From a virus, in IMG/VR virus record IMGVR_UViG_3300037245_000460, positions 1 through 21,318 of that record: DNA of 21,318 bases. The stretch is one strand, 5' to 3'. Below are positions 3,519-21,241 of this stretch, piece by piece. Made by a program: the position numbers and the translations under genes. The notes beneath the pieces are model-generated. The model saw nothing but the letters and a program-made list of their open reading frames with translations, was not told the origin of the DNA and did no database searches. Position 1 is the first letter of the stretch. Every line of letters starts with the position of its first letter.

Positions 3519-5609
3519 ATGCCTAAAATGAATGACACAGAATTATCTTCTATAGTCGGCACTCTTTTAAATGATACGACTAGCTATAATTCCGAGTTTA
3601 TGGGAGATAATGAGGACTACCTAAAGCGATATAATCAAGAATGTTACGGAGACGAAGAGACTGGATACTCTCAGGTCGTCGCCTCTGATGTTCGTGATAT
3701 TGTTGATTCCGATATGACCAGCATGGTTAGAGTCTTTCTTGGTTCTGGTGATGTCATGGTATTTGATGCCTTAAGCGATGATGAGGCAGAAGTAGAGGAA
3801 GCTTTAGAAAAGACAGAGCTAGTTAACTGGATGGTTCTTCAAAGACCTTCAGCCTATAACACTATCCACGGATTCCTTAAAGATGCTGAGATACAGAAAA
3901 TGGGCGTCGTCCATTACTTTATCGATACTGTAAGGACTACCCGAGAAGAGTTAATAAAAGATCAGACCGCAAAATCTATCCACGTTTTCATGGAGAACAT
4001 GAAAGAAAAGGATAAGTCAATAGAAAGAGTTGACATTGTAGAGAAGGAACCCTTAAAAGATGAGGGAAAGTTTCATTTCAGATTGCGCGTAACTGTTTCA
4101 AATAAAGAATTGATAATAAAGAATATCCCCACTGAAGACTTTTTGTTAACTACCGGCTCAGCTTGCCTTGATGATGCGTCGGCTGTAGGCCATCAAACCT
4201 CTATCACTAGAAGCGAGTTAGTAGCTAGCGGAATGAGCGAAGAGGAAGTTAATAAATTCCCTGCATCTTCTGATAATGGTGATAATTCAGGTCAAACAGG
4301 CGGCAATCAATCGAACAACATGAAGGAGATCCGCTGGAGAGATGAGGGCGGTGCGGTTGTAGATGCAGAATCCTTTACTGAGTGGTCACAGGAAAAAGTT
4401 GATCATGTTCTATTATTCGCATTAGTTGATTACGATGGCGACGGAATAGCAGAGCGTAGACGTATTGTTAAGATTGGTGAAACTATCACCGAAAACGAGC
4501 CTTACGACCATATACCTTACGCTGTGACTTCATGCATTATTGAGCCCCACAAAGCTATAGGCAATGGTAGAGCGTCTTTAGTAATGCAGGACCAGTCTAT
4601 CAATACAGAATTAGAGCGCGGTATGCTCGACAATATTTATGACGTTAGTAACCCGAGATCACTGCTTGGCGACGGCGTTAATACTGACGACTTTCTCGAT
4701 GATAAGAGAAATGGCGCGGTAAGAATGAAGGCTAATAGTACGCACTCTGCTAGAGATTCTATTATCCCAATACCAGTACAGTACGTTGGTGGCGAGATAA
4801 TGCAGGTTAAGCAGTCTAGAGACCAGTCTAAGGCGTCTAGAACAGGAACCATGCTAGATTCTCAAGGCTTAGAAGCTGACCAGCTACACCAAGAAACAGC
4901 AACTAGGTTTACAGGTATAGAGAGAGCTAACGAGGCTAAGATAGAATTAGTCGCTCGTAATCATGCAGAGGTTGGCTTTAGAAAGTTATTTGATGGCGTT
5001 GCGTGGACTCTACAGAGATTCATGGACCGAGTAATAAGAGTTAAGATTAACGGTAAGCCTATCAGCGTTAACCCTTCAGAATGGGAGTTTGAAACCGTTA
5101 CTAAATCTCAAGTCGGATTAGGCGCTGGAGCTGGTGACAAGGCGGTAAATCAACTGTCAGGCATATACTCCATTCAGCAGCAGTTAAAAGCTACAGGCTC
5201 TTTGCTAGTAGATGATCAAGACTTATACAACACACTAGACCAGATGGTGCAGGCATTAGGATATTCAAATACTTCTGACTTCTTTAACGATCCTTCAGCA
5301 CCACAAGAATTAATATTCGCTCAGTTGCAACAAGTAACGGCGGCACTGCAAGAATCTCAAGCCATGCTTGACCAGTTATCACAGCAAAATCCACTTAAAG
5401 AAGCTGAAATGGTTAAAGCTCAAGCATCACTAATCACCGCTCAAAGTAAAGGCGATGTAGAGCTGATTAAGGCTCAGGCTAATAAAGATGTTAAAGAGAT
5501 GGAAATGCTACAAAAGACAGCTATCCACGAGTCAGACCAGACATTTAAGTACACGCAACTAGAAGTAGAAAATAACGTTGACATACCGACTAAGGGCGTA
5601 AATGGATAA
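3519..5609 (+). CDS. portal protein (P22-type family)
   Basis: A 696-aa protein forming the ring at one head vertex through which DNA enters and leaves. The N-terminal pattern (about residues 40-130: GYSQVVASDVRDIVDSDMTS, then VFLGSGDVMVF, a VNW-type segment and a GFLKDAEIQKMGVVHYF-type segment) matches a widespread podovirus portal family. P22 portal is slightly longer (about 725 aa). The C-terminus, roughly residues 575-690, is rich in Gln, Ala, Lys and Glu in heptad-like order and should form the long helical barrel. The ribosome binding site CTCAGG lies 8 bases before the ATG. The last 8 bases overlap the following gene. The Gly/Gln/Asn-rich stretch near residues 250-266 is probably a surface loop. 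Confidence 0.9.
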   Translation: MPKMNDTELSSIVGTLLNDTTSYNSEFMGDNEDYLKRYNQECYGDEETGYSQVVASDVRDIVDSDMTSMVRVFLGSGDVMVFDALSDDEAEVEEALEKTELVNWMVLQRPSAYNTIHGFLKDAEIQKMGVVHYFIDTVRTTREELIKDQTAKSIHVFMENMKEKDKSIERVDIVEKEPLKDEGKFHFRLRVTVSNKELIIKNIPTEDFLLTTGSACLDDASAVGHQTSITRSELVASGMSEEEVNKFPASSDNGDNSGQTGGNQSNNMKEIRWRDEGGAVVDAESFTEWSQEKVDHVLLFALVDYDGDGIAERRRIVKIGETITENEPYDHIPYAVTSCIIEPHKAIGNGRASLVMQDQSINTELERGMLDNIYDVSNPRSLLGDGVNTDDFLDDKRNGAVRMKANSTHSARDSIIPIPVQYVGGEIMQVKQSRDQSKASRTGTMLDSQGLEADQLHQETATRFTGIERANEAKIELVARNHAEVGFRKLFDGVAWTLQRFMDRVIRVKINGKPISVNPSEWEFETVTKSQVGLGAGAGDKAVNQLSGIYSIQQQLKATGSLLVDDQDLYNTLDQMVQALGYSNTSDFFNDPSAPQELIFAQLQQVTAALQESQAMLDQLSQQNPLKEAEMVKAQASLITAQSKGDVELIKAQANKDVKEMEMLQKTAIHESDQTFKYTQLEVENNVDIPTKGVNG

Positions 5610-5907: not shown

Positions 5908-6709
5908 TACAGAACAAGTAACGAATCAGGAAACAGCAACGGATACTGTAGCCAGTACAACCAATGTTAGTTCCATAGATGCGGGTGATACCGCAAAGGG
6001 TGAGCAATCGTCCAGTGAAGTTAGCAAGGATCAAAGTAGCAATGTTGAGAACCTTTTTTACGATATACAAGGTGAAGAAGTAAGTCACGATACTGTTATG
6101 GGCTGGAAAAACGGCCATATGATGCAGTCTGATTTTACAAAAAAGTCGCAATTAAACGCAGAGGAAAGGAAAGGCTTGGAGGCTAAACATGTATTAGCTG
6201 ATGAGAAGATTGCTAGCCTTAGCGACTCTATCGAAAAGGTTAGGGCTTTTATTAAAGAGGAGTCCACAAGCGAAGAGTTAGAGGATTTGCGCGATACTGA
6301 CATGGCCGAATGGTCAAGACGTAAAGAGGCTATTGCAAAAAAAGAAAAAGAGGTTGAACAAGCTGATAAAGACTTGAAAGCCATGCAAGAAAGTGAGAAC
6401 CAAGAGCGTGCTTTAGTAGAGCATCAACTCTTCAGGGATTCACAGCCATCGTGGGTAGACCAGAAAGTTATGGATGCCGACTTAGCATTGATTGAAAGTT
6501 ATGTGAAGGATTCTGAATTTTCACCTGAAGATTTTAATTCTCTGCAAACGCATAAATTAATGAATATGGCTCTCGATGCGTCAAGATATAGAAAGCTACA
6601 AGGGGAGGCAACAGAGACAGAGAAACAAGTCCGAGATGCGCCAAATGTAGTTAAGGCTACTGTCAAAAAAACTAAACCAAAGGGCAAAGCTCGTTCTTTA
6701 TACAGCTAA
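5882..6709 (+). CDS. capsid scaffolding protein
   Basis: A 275-aa acidic, helix-rich protein that should guide coat assembly and then leave the prohead. The first 55 residues are a disordered Thr/Ser/Glu-rich leader. The motif VMGWKNGHMMQSDFTKKSQ near residues 72-90 corresponds to a segment seen in many phage scaffolds (a Trp-Lys-x-Gly and DYTKKTQ-type pattern). A long coiled coil follows at about 90-180. The extreme C-terminus is strongly basic (KKTKPKGKARSLYS), as in scaffolds whose positive tail binds the coat. The frame is open from a GTG at 5846, but the ATG at 5882, with GAGG about 10 bases upstream, gives the expected N-terminus. It lies between portal and coat, as in P22. Confidence 0.82.
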   Translation: MEANNAELSTEQVTNQETATDTVASTTNVSSIDAGDTAKGEQSSSEVSKDQSSNVENLFYDIQGEEVSHDTVMGWKNGHMMQSDFTKKSQLNAEERKGLEAKHVLADEKIASLSDSIEKVRAFIKEESTSEELEDLRDTDMAEWSRRKEAIAKKEKEVEQADKDLKAMQESENQERALVEHQLFRDSQPSWVDQKVMDADLALIESYVKDSEFSPEDFNSLQTHKLMNMALDASRYRKLQGEATETEKQVRDAPNVVKATVKKTKPKGKARSLYS

Positions 6710-6746
6710 CCCTTTATCTATGGTAATTAACTAAGGTGAAATTAAA

Positions 6747-7766
6747 ATGGCAACTTTAAGTACTACAAATCCTACTATGATGGATTGGGCCAAGACCCGA
6801 GATCCAGACGGTAGCACTTCTCAGATCATTGAGATGCTTTCTCAAAAGAACCGTATGTTAGACGATATGGTAATTAAAGAAGGTAACACACCAACTGGCG
6901 AGCAAGTAACTTTGCGCACTGGATTGGCTACAGCTTCTTTTAGAGAGCTTAACCAAGGTACAGCAGCAACTAAATCGACAACTGCGCAAGTAACCGAGAA
7001 TGCAGCTATTCTTGTTAGTCGCTCACATGTTGATGAAGATATTGCAAACCTAGAGGACGACCTATCAGCTTATAGAATGTCTATGGCTCGCGGTCACATG
7101 CAAGGCATGAGCAACACACAAGCCACTACAATGGTTTATGGCTCTGCTGCTAACCCTGAAGAGTATGTAGGTTTTAATAACCGCTATAACTCTTTAACTG
7201 GTGATGCTAACAGTGATAACGTTTTAAGTGCTGGCGGCTCTGGCTCTGATAACATGTCTATCTTGTTAGTTAACTGGTCTACTGATGGCGTCTACACTTT
7301 CTTTCCTAAAGGTTCTGATGTTGGTTTAACTCATCAAGATCTAGGCTTGGACGATGTTGACGATGCAAGTGGTAACCCTTTCCGAGCTTATAAAGATTTA
7401 TATAAGTGGAAGTTAGGTCTTGCTGTTGCTGATTGGCGTGATGCTGTTCGTATTTGTAATATCGACAATTCTGATTTGGTCAATTTAACAGGTACTCAGG
7501 CAATTACAGCTAGCACAGCTATCCATAAGCAAATGGCTAAAGCTCTTGATCATATCCCTGATATTTCAAGTGGTCGCCCTGCGTTTTACGTTAACCGTAC
7601 TGTTGCTAGTAATCTTCGTATTGCTGCTATGGATACTTCTAACGGCGCCGTAACCATCGAGCCAGCTATTAACCAGTTCGGTAAAAACATCCACCAGCTA
7701 ATGTATCTAGGCACTCCTGTTCGTCTTATGGACGCACTAACAATCGCCGAAGCTACAGTATCTTAA
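6747..7766 (+). CDS. major capsid protein (epsilon15 gp7-like family)
   Basis: A 339-aa coat subunit that builds the icosahedral shell. The sequence follows a well-known podovirus coat pattern: a helical N-arm (DWAKTRDPDG), the segment IIEMLSQKNRMLDDMVIKEG, then PTGEQVTLRTGLATASFREL and NQGTAATKSTT in the region expected for the E-loop, and FNNRYN, FFPKGS and a KLGLAVADWRD-type core later on. I assign it to the gp7-like coats with an HK97-type fold; the precise family name should be confirmed by profile search. AAGGTGAAATTAAA before the ATG is a strong ribosome binding site, fitting the most abundant virion protein. Directly followed by the cement gene. Confidence 0.88.
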   Translation: MATLSTTNPTMMDWAKTRDPDGSTSQIIEMLSQKNRMLDDMVIKEGNTPTGEQVTLRTGLATASFRELNQGTAATKSTTAQVTENAAILVSRSHVDEDIANLEDDLSAYRMSMARGHMQGMSNTQATTMVYGSAANPEEYVGFNNRYNSLTGDANSDNVLSAGGSGSDNMSILLVNWSTDGVYTFFPKGSDVGLTHQDLGLDDVDDASGNPFRAYKDLYKWKLGLAVADWRDAVRICNIDNSDLVNLTGTQAITASTAIHKQMAKALDHIPDISSGRPAFYVNRTVASNLRIAAMDTSNGAVTIEPAINQFGKNIHQLMYLGTPVRLMDALTIAEATVS

Positions 7767-8594: not shown

Positions 8595-9221
8595 ATGGCT
8601 TTAGCAAATTTTTCAGATTTGAAAGCATCTATAAAGAAATGGTCTAAGCGTGAAGACGTTGACGACCTTATACCTGACTTTATAGCTATATGCGAGAATC
8701 AGATATATTCTAATACTACCGAGCCATTGCGTGTTGGTAGTATGGTCCAGACTTCTGTTGGTGCCACTAGCGCATCGGTTAGAACTCAAGCTAAGCCCAC
8801 AGGTTATTTAGAGGTTCGCCGCTATGACTTTGAAATATCCGGCCAAAGACCATCTATACACTATGTAACGCCAACAAAAATGAATATTCGTGATGGTTCT
8901 GGCTTACCGGCCACTTACACTATCACCTCTCAAATTGAATACGATATTCAGCCAGACCAAGTTTATGTAACCAATATGATTTACTACGGCAAACTAACTG
9001 CTTTAAGTGACTCTAATACTACTAACTCAATACTTACAGATAGCGCAGAAATTTACCTTTACGGATCTTTAATGGCCTTATTCCAATGGGCTGAAGATGA
9101 TGAGCAATCTATTAAGTATCAGAATCTATTCTTTCAAGCTATACACGGCGCCAATTCCGCTGATAGTGCAGGCAATATCGGCGTAGCTACTCAAAAGCAA
9201 CGATGGGGGCGCAATCCTTAA
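8595..9221 (+). CDS. head-tail adaptor protein (SU10-adaptor-like)
   Basis: A 208-aa protein expected to form a ring beneath the portal, the position held by gp4 in P22. The N-terminal helices (MALANFSDLKASIKKWSKRED, then VDDLIPDFIAICENQIYSN) match the adaptor pattern of a short helix, a DLIPDFI-type motif and an E-x-x-I-x-x helix. A beta-rich middle and a late helix (AEIYLYGSLMALFQWAED) complete the fold. It sits between coat-region genes and the gp10-like gene, as expected. It starts 3 bases after the previous stop, and its TAA shares a base with the next ATG. The end is basic (QKQRWGRNP). Confidence 0.82.
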   Translation: MALANFSDLKASIKKWSKREDVDDLIPDFIAICENQIYSNTTEPLRVGSMVQTSVGATSASVRTQAKPTGYLEVRRYDFEISGQRPSIHYVTPTKMNIRDGSGLPATYTITSQIEYDIQPDQVYVTNMIYYGKLTALSDSNTTNSILTDSAEIYLYGSLMALFQWAEDDEQSIKYQNLFFQAIHGANSADSAGNIGVATQKQRWGRNP

Positions 9222-10624
9222 TGCCTTTCCAGAACGTACCACTTAGCATAATAGGCGGCACTAGCCAGAATAGAAGCCATCAGGCTAATAACCAGCTTAC
9301 TAAAAATTGGTATCCCGAGTTGACACCTAGCGGCGTTGCCCCTGCTGTATTATTGCCGTGGCTTGGATCTAGCGCCCTTGGATCTAATGCGGTTGGAACT
9401 GATCGAGGTACGCACGAATTCAACGGCGTTTTATATCATGTCGTTGACCAGACTCTTTATTCGGTTAACTCCTCCGGTGGTAGAGTATCCATAGGAACCA
9501 TTGACGGAACCCAGCGCTGTATATTTTCTAATAGCGTTGTTGGGTCACTTGATCAGATGGTTATTGCAGCGGGCAAGATATACACCTATGACGGCACAAC
9601 ATTAACAGAAACATCCCTATTTGCTGACTCAGTAACTTATTTAAACTCTAAATCTATTTACCCTGATGGCGGCTTTAACTTCGCTGTGAGTGGTGCAGGC
9701 GGACCCGCTGACATTACAAGCACCGGAAGTGCAGAAAGCTCCACAGATGATTTGCTTAGGCCGTATGCGTTTAATCAGTGGGTTTACATGTTTGGAATCG
9801 AAACTATAGAGCCTTTTTATGATTCTGGAGCAACAACCGGAACACCTTTAGCTAGAATAGATAACTCTATAATGCAGAAAGGCTTAGGAGGTCTTTATAC
9901 TATAGCTAATACAGATCAAGCCTTATATTTTCTAGGAGATGATTCAAACGTATACAAGATAATCCAAAGCCAGTTAACTAACATTACACCCCCTGATATT
10001 GTTAACAGTATAAAGGATAAGAACAAAACAACAGCTTATGCGTTCACTATTATTATTAACGGCCAAGATTTTTATATCCTACAATTTAGCACGGGGTTAA
10101 CTTATGCTTATAGCGAGCAGATAAATGAATGGTTTAATTTATCTACCGGAACGGGCGATGATCCTTACTTAGCGGTCTCATATACTCGCGCATACAATAA
10201 ACACATTGCAGTAGATTACAGAACAGGTAAGACAATAGAGCTAAGCTTTGATGCTTTCGACGATTTAGGCGAAACAATACAAAGACGCAGAGTTTTACCA
10301 CCTCTAACATCTGTCAATTTAGGTGCTGGAACTGGAAAAAGACTTAAAATGTCTCGCGTTTATTTCTCTCTTCAAACTGGCCAAGGATTAGCTAGCGGTC
10401 AAGGTTCGGACCCTAGAATAATGGTAGAGTATTCCATAGATGGCGGCGAAACATTTTCAACCGAGCAATGGGTTAAGTTCGGCAAGCTTGGGCAGTATTT
10501 ATTAAAAGTTAAGTTTGACGCAATGGTCAGTTTTTACGAGATAACCTTTCGGATAACTGTATCAGACCCAGTATTCTGCTCACTACATGACGCTTCTATA
10601 GATGTTAAAGCGGGGGGTTACTAA
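9221..10624 (+). CDS. packaged-DNA stabilisation / tail hub protein (P22 gp10-like)
   Basis: A 467-aa beta-rich protein that closes the portal channel after packaging and forms the tail hub. Length is close to P22 gp10 (472 aa). Shared features include the N-terminal strand pattern with an NWYPEL segment, a repeated beta-blade style (RGTHEFNGVLYHVVDQTLYS), a central GLGGLYTIANTDQALYFLG segment that parallels the gp10 region before its Ile/Ser-rich blade, and the late RVYFSLQTGQG and MVEYSIDGGETF strands. The frame opens at an ATG at 9203, but the ATG at 9221 forms a TAATG junction with the adaptor gene and is preferred. Completes the gp4-gp10 type neck. Confidence 0.85.
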   Translation: MPFQNVPLSIIGGTSQNRSHQANNQLTKNWYPELTPSGVAPAVLLPWLGSSALGSNAVGTDRGTHEFNGVLYHVVDQTLYSVNSSGGRVSIGTIDGTQRCIFSNSVVGSLDQMVIAAGKIYTYDGTTLTETSLFADSVTYLNSKSIYPDGGFNFAVSGAGGPADITSTGSAESSTDDLLRPYAFNQWVYMFGIETIEPFYDSGATTGTPLARIDNSIMQKGLGGLYTIANTDQALYFLGDDSNVYKIIQSQLTNITPPDIVNSIKDKNKTTAYAFTIIINGQDFYILQFSTGLTYAYSEQINEWFNLSTGTGDDPYLAVSYTRAYNKHIAVDYRTGKTIELSFDAFDDLGETIQRRRVLPPLTSVNLGAGTGKRLKMSRVYFSLQTGQGLASGQGSDPRIMVEYSIDGGETFSTEQWVKFGKLGQYLLKVKFDAMVSFYEITFRITVSDPVFCSLHDASIDVKAGGY

Positions 10625-12696: not shown

Positions 12697-13656
12697 ATGG
12701 GTTTTTTAAGTGATTTCGTTGGGGGCATAACTGGTAGTAGCGCGGCGGGTGCGGCGACTAGAGGCGGTCAACAATTATCCCAAGCGGCTTTAGATGCTGC
12801 TACAGCCAGAGAGGGCGGAATAACGGCAGGGTTAACCGCTCAAGAGGGTTTAGGCCGCGAGGGATTAGATATTCTAACCGGCGGATTAAAGCCTTTCATG
12901 CTAGAAGGTGGAGACCCTTTTGTTTCAAATCTTCGCGGCTTATCTTCAGATCCTAGTCAGCAAGTAGATTTCCTTCAAGGTAATCCGCTATTCAATGCTT
13001 TAAGAGGTCAAGCCAGAGAGGACACATTTAGAACTCAATCCGCTAGCGGCACTCTAGGTGGTAGTGGTACTGATGAAATACTAGAAAACAGATTCTTATC
13101 TATTGGTAATGACTTAATTAACCAGCAAATTAATAGGCAAATTCCTTTGCTTCAATCTGCACAGCAGGCCGGTACTGCTTTTGGTACTGGGGGCGCAAAC
13201 ATCCTACAGAATCTTGGCCAATCTCAGTTATTAGGACAGCAAGGTATTGGTGAGGCTCAAGCAGGCGGGCTAGAGCAATCAGCTCAAGCTTTAGCTACTG
13301 GTCGAATAGGCGCGGCAAACGCTAGAGCTGGTGGAGTTCAAAATATACTAGGGCTTGGATCTGCTGCTTTATCTGGTGGTCTAGGCGGCGGCTTAGCTGG
13401 TGCTGCTGGCGGTATAGCTTCTTTATTCTCGGATGAGCGATTAAAAACCAACATTGAAAAGATCGGATCTAAAAACGGTATTAATGTTTATAGCTGGAAC
13501 TGGAACGATATAGCCGGTGATATTGGTTTAACTGGCAAAGGTCATGGCCATATAGCTCAGCAGGTTCAAGAGGTTTATCCAGAATTAATATCTAAGCACG
13601 ATAACGGCTATCTAATGATTAACTACTCAACAGATAAAACAGTGAGCTTAAACTAA
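12697..13656 (+). CDS. ejection protein (gp7 position) with C-terminal S74-type chaperone domain
   Basis: A 319-aa protein. Residues 1-215 are Gly/Ala/Gln-rich and helical with repeated Ala-x-Ala patterns, typical of the smallest DNA-ejection protein (P22 gp7 slot). Residues about 216-243 form a Gly/Ala/Leu-rich hydrophobic stretch that could insert in a membrane. From Ser245 the sequence SDERLKTNIEKIG begins an intramolecular-chaperone, peptidase S74-like domain with the Ser and Lys250 of the self-cleavage dyad, then YSWNWND and GHIAQQVQEVYPEL. In tailspikes such a domain trimerises the protein and is cut off before the Ser; cleavage here would release 75 residues. The frame also opens at a TTG at 12691, but AGGTGG six bases before the ATG at 12697 decides the start. 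Confidence 0.8.
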   Translation: MGFLSDFVGGITGSSAAGAATRGGQQLSQAALDAATAREGGITAGLTAQEGLGREGLDILTGGLKPFMLEGGDPFVSNLRGLSSDPSQQVDFLQGNPLFNALRGQAREDTFRTQSASGTLGGSGTDEILENRFLSIGNDLINQQINRQIPLLQSAQQAGTAFGTGGANILQNLGQSQLLGQQGIGEAQAGGLEQSAQALATGRIGAANARAGGVQNILGLGSAALSGGLGGGLAGAAGGIASLFSDERLKTNIEKIGSKNGINVYSWNWNDIAGDIGLTGKGHGHIAQQVQEVYPELISKHDNGYLMINYSTDKTVSLN

Positions 13657-14840
13657 TGCCAATAGATCCAAATGTTTTATTAAGAGGAATTGTCCCTGAT
13701 GCGGTCGGAGCGGCTTCACGTGGATTTGATCTAGGAAACGCCATTAGAAACGCACCATTACTAAGGCAGCAAAGAGAGCAGGCATTAGCAGCTGGCGAGC
13801 AAAAAGCTCAGTCAGAAAAACTAAAGCAAGGCCAAAACGAGGCTTTGGTAGCATTTCAGCTATTCGGCAACGAGCCTATTACTCAAGATAATTACAGCCA
13901 AGCCATTTCCCTAGCTGCTGCTCAGGGTCTACAGATAGACGACAAAGAAAGAATGCCAAGCCCTGAAAATATATCGATGTTTAATCAGGTTGTACAAGCC
14001 GGTGGACAATTGGCTCAGGGTTCTGGTCGCGGTGGACTAGCTAGCGCCACAACAACAACTTGGAAAAATGGAACTACCCTTTTTAATCTTCCTAACGGTT
14101 CTCAAAGGTTAGTTTTTCAAGGCAGAGAGATAACAGACCCTGCTGAAATTGATAGAACAATAAAAGCTGCAAATAAAAGCGGATTAATTCAGGCTGGACA
14201 AAAAGAATTTACCAAGGCTCAGCAAAAAGCTTTAGGAGCTGCAAAAGGCGGCGAAGAAGTGTTAGATATAACCGCAGACATCGCGGAGGAAACAGCGGCG
14301 GCTACTCAAAGAGGAAAGGCTAGAATTAAGTTGGCAACCGATCCCGAGATAGCAAAGTCAGTCGCAAAAGCTAGAGCTGAAGGCGTTACGGAAGCGGACG
14401 ACATAGAAAGACTTTCTAACTTGGATGCTAATATGACCGGATTGCTTGATGTTGTTGGCAACCTAAAAGAGCTTGGTCAAAAATCTACCTTCACAATGAA
14501 AGGCAGGGCATTTGATGCCGTTACCAGAGAGCTAGGATTTAATGTAGGTGAGGGCGCTAATGCTAGAGCTAAGTTTATCGCTGTTATTGATAACCAGATT
14601 TTACCTTTGCTTAAGCAAACTTTCGGTGCTGCATTTACCTTTCAAGAGGGTCAGTCACTTAAGAAGACTTTAGGTGATCCAAACGCAAGCCCAAGCGAAA
14701 AAAACGCCCAGCTTGACGCCTTTATTGAAGGAAAGTTTAGAGAGGCGCAGGCTGCTAGAGAAAAGCTAGGAATTGAAGCGCCAGCAGCGGCGGATGACGT
14801 TGTCGTTACTGAATTATCAGACGAGGAATTATTTAGATAA
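13656..14840 (+). CDS. ejection protein (gp20 position)
   Basis: A 394-aa helix-rich, Ala/Gln-rich protein with no signal peptide. N-terminal residues (NVLLRGIVPDAVGAASRGFD) and a charged coiled coil near residues 35-60 precede a central Gly/Thr-rich linker and a C-terminal helical region (about 255-365) that includes IDNQILPLLKQTFGAAFTF and a GDPNASPSEK turn, a pattern I associate with podovirus internal or ejection proteins. It lies second in the trio, as does P22 gp20 (471 aa), and overlaps both neighbours by one base (TAATG). It would leave the virion with the DNA to help form the envelope channel. Assignment rests mainly on order and composition. Confidence 0.75.
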   Translation: MPIDPNVLLRGIVPDAVGAASRGFDLGNAIRNAPLLRQQREQALAAGEQKAQSEKLKQGQNEALVAFQLFGNEPITQDNYSQAISLAAAQGLQIDDKERMPSPENISMFNQVVQAGGQLAQGSGRGGLASATTTTWKNGTTLFNLPNGSQRLVFQGREITDPAEIDRTIKAANKSGLIQAGQKEFTKAQQKALGAAKGGEEVLDITADIAEETAAATQRGKARIKLATDPEIAKSVAKARAEGVTEADDIERLSNLDANMTGLLDVVGNLKELGQKSTFTMKGRAFDAVTRELGFNVGEGANARAKFIAVIDNQILPLLKQTFGAAFTFQEGQSLKKTLGDPNASPSEKNAQLDAFIEGKFREAQAAREKLGIEAPAAADDVVVTELSDEELFR

Positions 14841-16741
14841 TGGCGACTACTAAAGAAAAATGGCAAGAAATAGCTAATAGAGGTTTGCAAGATAACTTTG
14901 ACCCAACTACTCGCGCCAAATTTGACGAGGCCGTTAACCGTGGGCTAATAACTGTTCCAGATACTCAAGGGTTTGTAAGTGCAGCCGGTGAAACTGCTAG
15001 AACTATTGGACAAAGCGCATTAGCTGAGGCTGGTTCTGGATTGGCTGGATTATTAGAGCTTGCTAAAACTCAAGATCCTATAGCGGCCGAGAACGCTATT
15101 AAACAATTTCAATCTGGATTTGCAGCACCGGAACCTAGCGCTAGATCACAGGAGCAATTGCAAGATATTGGCGGCGTAGTTGAATCAGTAATGAGCGCGG
15201 CTAATATACCTTTGTCTGGTATTGCTGGATTAACTGAATTAGCTACTGGCCAAGGGTTACCGCAAGCTATAGAAACTATTGAAGATGTTCAAGCTAGGGG
15301 ATTAGGAAAAGCAGCGGGTGAAAGAGTATTAGAGGAAACAGGAAGCCCATTAGCCGCCACTGTTGCAGAGATAGCCCCTACAGCAATATTAGACGTTGCA
15401 GGGCTTGGCGCAGCTAGACCGTTAACTAGATTAGCTACCGGTGAAAATATAGCTCAGGGCGCAAGACAAGCTGCTGATGTGGCGGCACCTGTAGCTAGAG
15501 AAGCTATTCAAGCTGGCGAAGATATTACCAAGGCTGTATTTGATTTCCAAACACCAGCTAAACAGAGAGTAGCCGAACTAATAAGAGAGGGTGCGGGCGA
15601 CATCGATACAGCTAAGTTTGTATTGACCGAAACCGGAAAAGTTAAGGCTGATAAGCTGGCTAGCGAAACTATTAGGCAGGGTTTTGATGAAGCCATTATA
15701 GCCACAGTTAAGACAGCATCGAAAGCCGATAAAATAAAGATGAATAAAATGGCTAACATCATGGAAAAGGGTAAGCGCAATGCTAGATTTGCTGCTGAGA
15801 ATCGCCCTAGTGATGTTGTTGGTGACACCTTATTATCCAAAGTTAAGGTTATTAGAGGCGCTAACTTAGCGGCTGGTAAAAGTATCGATAAGGTAGCTCA
15901 AACCTTAAAAGGTAAAGAAATAGATATTTCTGCTGCTGTTGATGATTTCGCTAGCAGCTTAGATAACTTGGGCGTTCAGCTAGTTGATGATGGCAAAGGC
16001 GGCTTTAAACCTGATTTCGAATTATCCCAATTAGCGGCTGGTGATAGAGGTCCGTTAAAAGAAGTTATTAGGCAGATGAATATTAGAGGCGCGGCCGGTG
16101 TTGATGGCTTTGCGGCTCATAGAATGAAACGCCTTATTGATAATAATGTCACTTTCGGAAAAACTAAGACCGGTTTAAGTGGTGATGCTGAAAGAGCTTT
16201 GAAATCATTTAGAGCTAATCTTGACGCTTCACTAGACAATACTTTTCCAGCTTATGATAAGGCGAATATTGCTTATGCTGACACTATCGGAGCACTTGAT
16301 TCAATACAGAGCGCGCTAGGAACCAAGTTAGACCTTAAAGGGCCTCAAGCAGATAAAGCCTTGGGAACAAAATTAAGAGGCTTGCTGAGCAACAACGCAA
16401 CACGGGTTAATCTACTGGACGCTACAAAAGAGATAGAGTCGGTAGCTAAAAAGCATGGTGCTAAGGGTAAACTTTTGGTAGAGGGTAAAGGTTTAGGTAG
16501 TGACGACCTTTTAAATCAAATACTTTTTGTTGATGAATTGGATTCTCGCTTTGGCCCTGTGGCTAGGACATCATTCCAAGGTCAGATAGATCAAGCAGCG
16601 CAGAGAGGTGTTAGCGCATTAACTGAGGCCAAAGTTAGTCCTGTTACAGCAGCTATAAAAGGCGCGGCTAGTATAGCGGAGAAGTTTAGAGGAATTAACG
16701 ACGACAACGCATTTAAAGCAATTAAAGACTTACTAAAGTAG
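14840..16741 (+). CDS. ejection protein (gp16 position)
   Basis: A 633-aa protein near the length of P22 gp16 (609 aa). The N-terminus (EKWQEIANRGLQDNF then FDEAVNRGLI) is a recurrent start of large podovirus ejection proteins. Residues about 45-75 and 120-150 are Ala/Gly/Leu-rich and amphipathic, suited to membrane interaction. The rest is a long series of Ala/Lys/Asp helices with no lytic transglycosylase motif that I can find. It begins on the last base of the gp20-like stop and ends the ejection block. The likely role is forming the periplasmic and inner-membrane part of the DNA channel. No frameshift or missing part. Confidence 0.77.
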   Translation: MATTKEKWQEIANRGLQDNFDPTTRAKFDEAVNRGLITVPDTQGFVSAAGETARTIGQSALAEAGSGLAGLLELAKTQDPIAAENAIKQFQSGFAAPEPSARSQEQLQDIGGVVESVMSAANIPLSGIAGLTELATGQGLPQAIETIEDVQARGLGKAAGERVLEETGSPLAATVAEIAPTAILDVAGLGAARPLTRLATGENIAQGARQAADVAAPVAREAIQAGEDITKAVFDFQTPAKQRVAELIREGAGDIDTAKFVLTETGKVKADKLASETIRQGFDEAIIATVKTASKADKIKMNKMANIMEKGKRNARFAAENRPSDVVGDTLLSKVKVIRGANLAAGKSIDKVAQTLKGKEIDISAAVDDFASSLDNLGVQLVDDGKGGFKPDFELSQLAAGDRGPLKEVIRQMNIRGAAGVDGFAAHRMKRLIDNNVTFGKTKTGLSGDAERALKSFRANLDASLDNTFPAYDKANIAYADTIGALDSIQSALGTKLDLKGPQADKALGTKLRGLLSNNATRVNLLDATKEIESVAKKHGAKGKLLVEGKGLGSDDLLNQILFVDELDSRFGPVARTSFQGQIDQAAQRGVSALTEAKVSPVTAAIKGAASIAEKFRGINDDNAFKAIKDLLK

Positions 16742-16751
16742 AGATAAAACA

Positions 16752-17051
16752 ATGTCATCAAAAATAGAAGCAACAGAAGTAACCAGTGGTTCGACTTACA
16801 CTTGGCCCACAGACGGTAACGGTTCTGATATTAGCATATACAGGGACCATACAATCCAAGTAACTAGCGCCGGTTCTGGTGTTGGCACTATTACAGCTGA
16901 TTTAGGTAATGGCGTTTATGTAGCTGTAGCGGCTTTGTCTGCTCCAGACTATGATACTTACCTGCTTCCAAATTGCGCCGGAATAAAAGTGGCTGCTAGT
17001 GTTGCTGACATCGTTTTATCAATTAAATCATTTTCTAGCACCGAGAAATAA
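16752..17051 (+). CDS. small beta-rich protein before the receptor-binding genes
   Basis: A 99-aa acidic protein of alternating Thr, Ser, Gly, Val and Ala residues, with an aromatic TYTWPTDG turn early and a DYDTYLLPNCAGIKV segment. It is probably a small beta sandwich. GAGA at about -10 and a short A-rich spacer precede the ATG. Its stop shares a base with the BspA-like gene start, so the two are coupled and perhaps form one attachment unit. Similar style to the 115-aa protein at 12256, but no sequence repeat between them is obvious. Function unknown. Confidence 0.65.
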   Translation: MSSKIEATEVTSGSTYTWPTDGNGSDISIYRDHTIQVTSAGSGVGTITADLGNGVYVAVAALSAPDYDTYLLPNCAGIKVAASVADIVLSIKSFSSTEK

Positions 17052-17908
17052 TGGCTTACCCTAAGACATACCCCAAAGTATTAACTAAGGCTTATCCTAA
17101 GGTCATAGGCGCTATTAACTCTTTTGATATAGAGATTGATACCACTAAGACCGAGGTAGGCAGTAGCACGTCATCCACTGTTATATTGCCACTAGTTAGC
17201 GGCCTAGCTTACGACTTCAATATTGACTGGGGTGATTCTCTAGTAGAAAGCTATGATAGTTCTTCACTTGCCAGTATCACTAGAACTTATTCAGCCTCGG
17301 GTGTATATACGATTAAGATATGGGGAACGTTCCCACGAATTAATTATAATAACAGTTCTGCAAACGACAAACTGAAGATTACCAAAATTAAAAACTGGGG
17401 GATTATTGAATGGTCCAGTCTTCAAACTGCCTTTTTTGGATGCGCGAACCTAGTGGCTGATTATGCAGACTTTCCCAACCTATCCGCTGTCACAAACACA
17501 AACACCGCATTTAGAAACGCCGTCTTGTGGAATGGTGATTTATCTAGCACTAATATGGATCTAGTTGTTGATGCTGGGAATATGTATTATGGTGCATCGG
17601 CATTTAACCAGCCGTTTCCAAATATGCCGTCGGTCATAGTTTTAAATAACACCCTAAGAAATACGCCGTTCAACCAGAATATAGACAACCTAACCATGCT
17701 AAACGTCACATCGGCAATAAATTTCATGAGCGGCAATACGGGATTTAGTCAGGAAAATTATGACTCATGGCTTGGTGTCGTTGATAATACGAACGTTAAT
17801 TCATCAGTTACAGCACATTTCGATTCAGCAACTTATACCGACACAAGCGGACATGACTGGCTTGCAACCACTAAAAGTTGGTCAATTACTGACGGCGGCG
17901 CAGCATAA
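17051..17908 (+). CDS. BspA/DUF285-type repeat protein with PKD-like domain, surface adhesin
   Basis: A 285-aa protein. Residues 1-20 contain three Tyr-Pro-Lys units and may dock on the virion. Residues about 25-110 look like a PKD-style beta domain: LPLVSGLAYDFNIDWGDS at 46-63, then SASGVYTIKIWGTF at 81-94. Residues about 115-230 hold BspA-type repeats of the surface-protein family (LQTAFFGCANL, NTAFRNAVLWNGDLSS, MYYGASAFNQPFPNM, FNQNIDNL). The end (WLATTKSWSITDGG) is a typical terminus for this family in phages. These repeats bind surface ligands in bacteria and parasites, so a receptor-binding or fibre role is likely, next to the tailspike gene. No lytic motif. Confidence 0.75.
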   Translation: MAYPKTYPKVLTKAYPKVIGAINSFDIEIDTTKTEVGSSTSSTVILPLVSGLAYDFNIDWGDSLVESYDSSSLASITRTYSASGVYTIKIWGTFPRINYNNSSANDKLKITKIKNWGIIEWSSLQTAFFGCANLVADYADFPNLSAVTNTNTAFRNAVLWNGDLSSTNMDLVVDAGNMYYGASAFNQPFPNMPSVIVLNNTLRNTPFNQNIDNLTMLNVTSAINFMSGNTGFSQENYDSWLGVVDNTNVNSSVTAHFDSATYTDTSGHDWLATTKSWSITDGGAA

Positions 17909-20750: not shown

Positions 20751-20843
20751 TTAGCATTTCTTTTTATCGCTCTTTATCAAAGCCGTTAATTTATTGATTT
20801 GCTTATTCTTCTTGCGTGCTTCTTTGCGCTTTCGTCTATGCAT
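20751..20843 (-). CDS. 30-aa basic micro-ORF coupled to endolysin
   Basis: On the minus strand a 30-codon frame starts on the last base of the endolysin stop (TGATG). The peptide is very basic (MHRRKRKEARKKNKQINKL) and ends in Cys, with about half its residues Lys or Arg and only two acidic residues. It has no membrane segment and is too short for a normal Rz/Rz1 spanin. It may be a real coupled gene or a chance frame in AT-rich DNA. Confidence 0.35.
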   Translation of the reverse strand: MHRRKRKEARKKNKQINKLTALIKSDKKKC

Positions 20844-21241
20844 CACATGGTCTCGATAATTTCTATATGCGGCCAATCCATAAACGATTGATCAGTTATA
20901 TCCCCGTCATTATCCCAGTCACAACCGCACCGCAACACATAACCTTTAGTGTGGGCAATTCCGCGAACGATTCCGATAAGATGAGCAAAGCGCTCAATGT
21001 TATTCCAGTCAATCGGATATGGAGCAATATCGACCGCTTTAGATGGCATTTCGTTATGATTAGAATCAGGAAACTTTAATTTGCTTCTGCCTTCGTGGAA
21101 TGCCTTGTTCTGCTCGCTCTCTCCTCTGTGGCCGCATAACACGGTGAAGTCGATAACCTTTATAGCTTCGTCTAAAACCTCCTGTAATCGCCTGTCACAG
21201 CTTAATAGGTTGTTCTTTGATCTTGTTCCAAATTTATACAT
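20843..21241 (-). CDS. endolysin, L-alanyl-D-glutamate peptidase (M15, T5-type)
   Basis: A 132-aa lytic enzyme that cuts the peptide of peptidoglycan between L-Ala and D-Glu. The sequence aligns by eye with T5 endolysin (137 aa): an early YKFGTRSKNNL, zinc ligands His62 (SNHN), Asp71 (AVDIAPY) and His125 (DWPHIEI), and likely catalytic Asp122. Residues 108-119 (DWDNDGDITDQS) read as an EF-hand-like loop, in the place of the calcium-regulated loop of T5 endolysin. It has no signal peptide, so it needs the holin. GAGGGTGAG just before the ATG is a strong ribosome binding site. It lies opposite to all other genes, converging on the holin. Confidence 0.9.
   Translation of the reverse strand: MYKFGTRSKNNLLSCDRRLQEVLDEAIKVIDFTVLCGHRGESEQNKAFHEGRSKLKFPDSNHNEMPSKAVDIAPYPIDWNNIERFAHLIGIVRGIAHTKGYVLRCGCDWDNDGDITDQSFMDWPHIEIIETM

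Follow-up and report, generated by a model that had tools for sequence, protein, structure and literature searches.

The locus was analysed within a window of 21,318 nucleotides, that is, positions 1 to 21,318 of the IMG/VR virus record IMGVR_UViG_3300037245_000460. This window has a P22-like gene order, with a gp3-type packaging protein, a terminase, an SU10-type portal, a GP7-type capsid protein, an adaptor, the head closure protein Hc3 and three genes in ejection positions. Comparison of this order with that of P22 places the gene under study first of the three behind the gp4/gp10 connector genes. It encodes a protein of 319 amino acids in an open reading frame that starts with an ATG at 12697, just downstream of a ribosome-binding-like site (AGGTGG), and stops at 13656. 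The features of the locus are the following:

8595..9221, plus strand: head-tail adaptor, synteny marker (PF24175 SU10 adaptor, E 3e-21)
9203..10624, plus strand: P22 gp10-like head closure protein Hc3, synteny marker (PHROG 578, E 3e-68; PF11134)
12697..13656, plus strand: gp7-type ejection protein ending in a minimal S74 domain, CDS of 319 aa (ORF; PF13884; PHROG 4287)
12697..13428, plus strand: residues 1-244, gp7-like ejection protein body (S74-less gp7 profile; AF2 helical residues 74-160)
13339..13428, plus strand: residues 215-244, hydrophobic tail rich in Gly and Ala that ends GGIASLF and corresponds to the P22 gp7 C-terminus (GIGLLGSLF-stop)
13426..13431, plus strand: predicted scissile bond Phe244/Ser245, codons of both residues (alignment to S587 of MYRF and S911 of endoNF; invariance)
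13429..13653, plus strand: residues 245-319, minimal S74 (ICA-like) domain that lacks the trimerisation helix at its C-terminus (PF13884; AF2; structural match 7dc3)
13444..13446, plus strand: codon of Lys250, which with Ser245 forms the putative catalytic dyad (Lys in 240/240 scored domains)
13656..14840, plus strand: second ejection-type gene, gp20 position (position as in the P22 gene order; PHROG 26675, E 3e-27)
14840..16741, plus strand: third ejection-type gene, gp16 position (position only)

The protein in the gp20 position matches a PHROG labelled endolysin and occupies the place of an ejection protein; probably this label is either mistaken or due to a lytic domain that is fused elsewhere in that family. 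No family match was found in Pfam or PHROG for the gene in the gp16 position. Further along the window, a DUF285 (BspA-like) repeat protein (17051-17908) adjoins the tail fibre region, and a 132-aa ORF on the minus strand (20843-21241) resembles by eye an M15-type peptidase endolysin, with no Pfam match at E 0.01.

Judged by sequence, residues 1-244 make up an ejection protein of the P22 gp7 type. PHROG 4287 (DNA ejection protein) matches residues 101-311 (E 4e-15), and the Pfam family P22_gp7 misses the 319-aa protein, yet matches its S74-bearing relatives L040 and PVA1. Because tblastn of residues 1-244 alone against the named phages gave no match (low complexity), homology to gp7 was tested with a custom profile, built from 30 homologues of P22 gp7 from named phages, IMG/VR contigs and prophages, none of which carries an S74 domain. 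This profile matches residues 47-244 over its columns 33-220 of 220 (E 4e-8 at a search size Z of 40000), with no match among 200 shuffled copies and with a large composition bias term in the real match. The AF2 model of the full protein is confident for a helical region (residues 74-160) and for the S74 domain, and poor for the rest, residues 165-243 being mostly of low confidence. The top structural match of the helical region (residues 64-166) is the internal virion protein gp14 of T7 (7ey7_A), a weak one (Z 5.7, rmsd 6.3 over 94 residues) that makes the likeness in the predicted model only suggestive. The protein is probably carried in the virus head and ejected ahead of the DNA.

The initial annotation had placed an S74 domain at 13429-13656, starting at Ser245 (codon 13429-13431) with SDERLKTNI and followed by GHIAQQV, and had proposed a comparison of residues 245-319 with PF13884. 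Our results bear this out: PF13884 (Peptidase_S74) matches residues 245-297 with an E of 9.9e-11 and 42.2 bits, against a cut-off of 22, SDERLKTNI corresponds to residues 245-253 and GHIAQQV lies within 282-290. This is the sole S74 match in the whole virus record. That such a domain sits on an ejection protein in the gp7 position holds as well, given the intact Ser-Lys dyad, the PHROG 4287 match and the gp7 profile. A search of the 319-aa protein against NCBIfam gave no match. Furthermore, when 67 minimal S74 domains were combined into a profile, it matched S74 chaperones of solved structure (6f45, E 7e-7; 3gud, 5e-5; MYRF 7dc3, 7e-5; 8jov, 9e-5). The isolated domain is predicted by AF2 as a confident monomer (mean pLDDT 86), and its best structural match is the ICA domain of MYRF (7dc3, Z 3.9, rmsd 2.4 over 59 residues), the next, unrelated row having a Z of 2.8. 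Foldseek alone yielded no significant match for either model, only insignificant kinase-like rows.

The domain is a minimal one. The ORF stops 75 residues past the catalytic-position Ser245, and the C-terminal trimerising coiled coil (alpha4) is absent; the structural alignment to 7dc3 stops short of most of the C-terminal helix. In relatives, the residues past the Pfam core number 3-20 in minimal domains and at least 24 in fibre-type proteins, where the sequence is typical of a coiled coil, the sorting by length (20 vs 24 residues) being partly arbitrary. No C-terminal coiled coil was found in any gp7-like carrier, carriers having been chosen by a tail of 60-95 residues, and no full-length S74 was found in gp7-like proteins outside this filter. 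No triple beta-helix or beta-stalk is predicted upstream either, residues 180-233 being modelled by AF2 with low confidence as one helix and no strands. A conserved aromatic core (Y.W.WN) is peculiar to the minimal domain, and no part of the protein is better conserved, with a dN to the relative L003 of 0.13 in the S74 part vs 0.43.

The dyads S587-K592 of MYRF and S911-K916 of endosialidase NF are proven and equivalent to each other, and both proteins cut on the N-terminal side of the dyad Ser (PMC8326128). Ser245 and Lys250 align with both dyads at equal spacing. Ser, Asp and Lys are present in all 144 minimal domains (28 clusters below 75% identity), 78 of which were retrieved by scanning for patterns that lie downstream of the dyad. 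When S74 domains were scored with neither Ser nor Lys weighted, Lys was found in 240/240 and Ser in 238/240, in a set that includes some fibre domains, a few of them in the minimal group; fibre domains keep the dyad too. The two Ser exceptions are a frameshifted fragment (L283) and an intact gene with Cys in place of Ser (L257). In the sequences compared, Ser and Lys are thus the strictest positions of an otherwise divergent domain. The trimer helix has been lost and the dyad has not, which speaks for a catalytic pair that is still in use. As to the individual contigs, L257 (IMG/VR contig 3300009033_000001) has a natural Ser-to-Cys at the S74 nucleophile (AFCDRRLK) of an intact gp7-like gene, and Cys is the expected tolerated substitute for a nucleophile; L283 and L294 carry frameshifted gp7-S74 genes that may be assembly errors.

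The putative cut site coincides with the end of gp7. Indeed, the last column (Phe220) of the S74-less gp7 profile aligns with F244, the residue before the putative cut, and Ser245 follows the gp7 end directly, with no linker. The gp7 proteins of P22, Sf6 and prophages end in LLGSLF (GIGLLGSLF in P22), and all 16 closed prophage gp7 homologues found end in Phe. Among distinct S74-less gp7 proteins the last residue is Phe in 11/19, the remainder being mainly Ile, and in S74-bearing gp7-like proteins Phe precedes the nucleophile (position -1) in 22 of the 28 distinct sequences. Minimal S74 domains on other proteins have Phe at this position in only 17/87 (Fisher p 3e-8 against the gp7-like set), and fibre-type domains mostly have Ser or Thr. 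In Pseudomonas phage AH02 the residues leading up to Ser read LTGLSLF. Since Phe at -1 is common in gp7-like proteins and rare in other S74 carriers, it follows the gp7 body and not the S74 domain. In the L006 locus, an S74-less paralogue ends SSIAGLFA-stop, aligned within one residue of the cut site (TIASLF/S) of the preceding S74-bearing gene. As the putative cut site coincides with the natural C-terminus of S74-less gp7, the Gly/Ala-rich hydrophobic stretch noted in the initial annotation before the cut is real (about residues 215-244) and can be specified further, as it is gp7's own tail. Tandem gp7-like genes with and without S74 lie at L006:4810-6252 and about 6252-6821, respectively, and L007 has the same arrangement, as L005 probably does.

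In a tree of gp7, the S74 module changes state 8 times by parsimony, and at least 5 times on starred (well supported) branches. If the module is cleaved, repeated gain or loss is expected, because the mature product would be the same with or without it. No free-standing S74 partner was found near S74-less gp7 genes; a masking role would therefore not be needed by all homologues. Two PHROG families, phrog_6121 and phrog_4287, were found in 66 and 62 of the 75 scanned carriers. Many virion proteins without recognisable likeness to gp7 (starting MSKGK.. or MGS..SPPP..) likewise end in a minimal S74; in these, Phe at -1 is rare, and their mature ends may differ from that of gp7. One viral locus (L205:379-1515 and 4077-5156) has a full S74 on a tail-spike-type protein as well as a minimal S74 on an ejection-position protein.

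From the domain, the dyad and the coincidence of the cut site with the gp7 end, we infer cleavage at F244/S245. The reading we favour, and hold to be fairly probable, is that residues 245-319 act as a self-removing C-terminal cap that regenerates the normal gp7 tail. The gp7-type protein (residues 1-244) would be translated with this module, a minimal S74 that has kept the catalytic core and the Ser245-Lys250 dyad and lost the C-terminal coiled coil. The module would fold behind the hydrophobic Gly/Ala tail of gp7, keeping it covered and soluble during synthesis and assembly (the masking is a guess), and would then cut its own F244/S245 bond, freeing a piece of ~8 kDa. This would expose the -SLF C-terminus that S74-less gp7 proteins get straight from their stop codon. 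The trigger and timing of the cut are likewise a guess, and could be self-assembly of gp7, contact with scaffold or portal, or plain folding. In P22, gp7 residues 21-154 suffice for uptake into procapsids (PMC8402733), and a C-terminal cap therefore need not block assembly or packaging.

Other readings have to be weighed against the self-removing cap. MYRF cleavage needs the dyad plus a trimer, built mainly by the C-terminal three-stranded coiled coil (PMC8326128), and the helix in question is missing here. This argues against the cap and for a non-cleaving S74 fold, one that the ejection protein would keep as a structural or docking module (for scaffold, portal or other ejection proteins), with Ser and Lys in structural roles. 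The aromatic core and the confident monomer prediction also favour such a fold. The two residues could be retained for folding and Phe at -1 for another reason, and the abutment of gp7 and S74 fits a stable module too, because a domain fused at an old stop codon would likewise begin directly at the gp7 end. However, in intact genes Ser is swapped solely to Cys, never to Thr, Ala or Asp, and Lys is never swapped, which is stricter than is usual for a structural role; moreover, the gp7 end abuts Ser without a linker, with the C-terminal Phe of gp7 preserved at -1. We therefore regard a permanent module as unlikely, albeit a serious contender.

The remaining readings keep the cleavage and change its purpose or its moment. 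The initial annotation had noted that such domains normally trimerise fibres and are cut off, and had suggested that here the domain may order oligomerisation of the ejection channel or be released before packaging. Of this, cleavage before Ser245 is plausible and is strengthened by the dyad and by the position of the cut at the gp7 end, as far as sequence can tell, and trimerisation is weakened by the missing C-terminal helix and the missing upstream triple beta-helix. A classical chaperone, in which three copies would trimerise through S74, template the assembly of the ejection channel and then be cleaved as in tailspikes, has on its side the family and dyad that it shares with tailspike and MYRF domains. 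We nevertheless consider it improbable, as neither a coiled coil in any gp7-like carrier nor a beta-stalk upstream was found, and T7 gp14, the closest structural analogue of the body (weak, Z 5.7), is arranged eight-fold in virions and six-fold in the channel once ejected (PMC11784390). Finally, the domain might be packaged intact and cut only during ejection, the cleavage causing the gp7 tail to insert into the outer membrane. The sufficiency of P22 gp7 residues 21-154 for procapsid uptake (PMC8402733) would allow for this order of events. We deem it very improbable, however: known S74 cleavages come after folding and assembly.

The domain described here resembles the ICA domains of endoNF and MYRF in its PF13884 core, in the spacing of the Ser-Lys dyad and in a predicted cut just before Ser, with MYRF ICA as the best structural match. 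It differs from them in lacking a C-terminal trimerising helix, in being preceded not by a trimeric beta-stalk but by an ejection protein that is helical and Gly/Ala-rich and, as compared with fibre types too, in having Phe and not Ser or Thr before the cut. With P22 gp7 and Sf6 gp11 (PF25688) the 319-aa protein shares its body, the place in the gene order and the Gly/Ala-rich hydrophobic tail ending in Phe, but the gp7 proteins of P22 and Sf6 have no S74 domain. A minimal S74 is also found at the C-terminus of an ejection-position protein in the phages Pseudoalteromonas H6/1, Pseudomonas AH02, Vibrio PVA1 and 199E37-1, Salmonella 7-11 and Octadecabacter DB2, and the S74 proteins of these six are annotated in GenBank as 'ejection protein', pfam13884 or 'intramolecular chaperon'. 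The presence of S74 on ejection-position proteins is thus already known, from GenBank annotations only. A literature search, run mostly outside subscription journals, returned no description of the fusion, its truncation, cut site or function; in the SU10 and P22 papers, neither an S74 domain nor processing at the C-terminus is mentioned for ejection proteins. Three points appear not to have been observed before: that the domain is truncated, that its dyad is retained, and that the putative cut site matches the C-terminus of gp7.

On fibres and on MYRF, S74 autocleavage is taken to be a quality check that depends on trimer formation. It is conceivable, and we suggest it tentatively, that a pared-down S74, which works without the usual trimerising coiled coil, serves many short-tailed phages as a removable cap at the C-terminus of ejection-channel proteins, with folding- or assembly-triggered cleavage creating a membrane-active tail only when needed. 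This is directly testable, because several cultivable phages carry a minimal S74 on ejection proteins. P22 gp7 is itself trimmed at its N-terminus by host OpdA (PMC8402733). Should our suggestion hold, a widespread minimal S74 with a near-unvarying dyad and no trimer helix would mean that the catalytic core is able to function when controlled in another way, and C-terminal self-processing would join the poorly understood maturation of ejection proteins.
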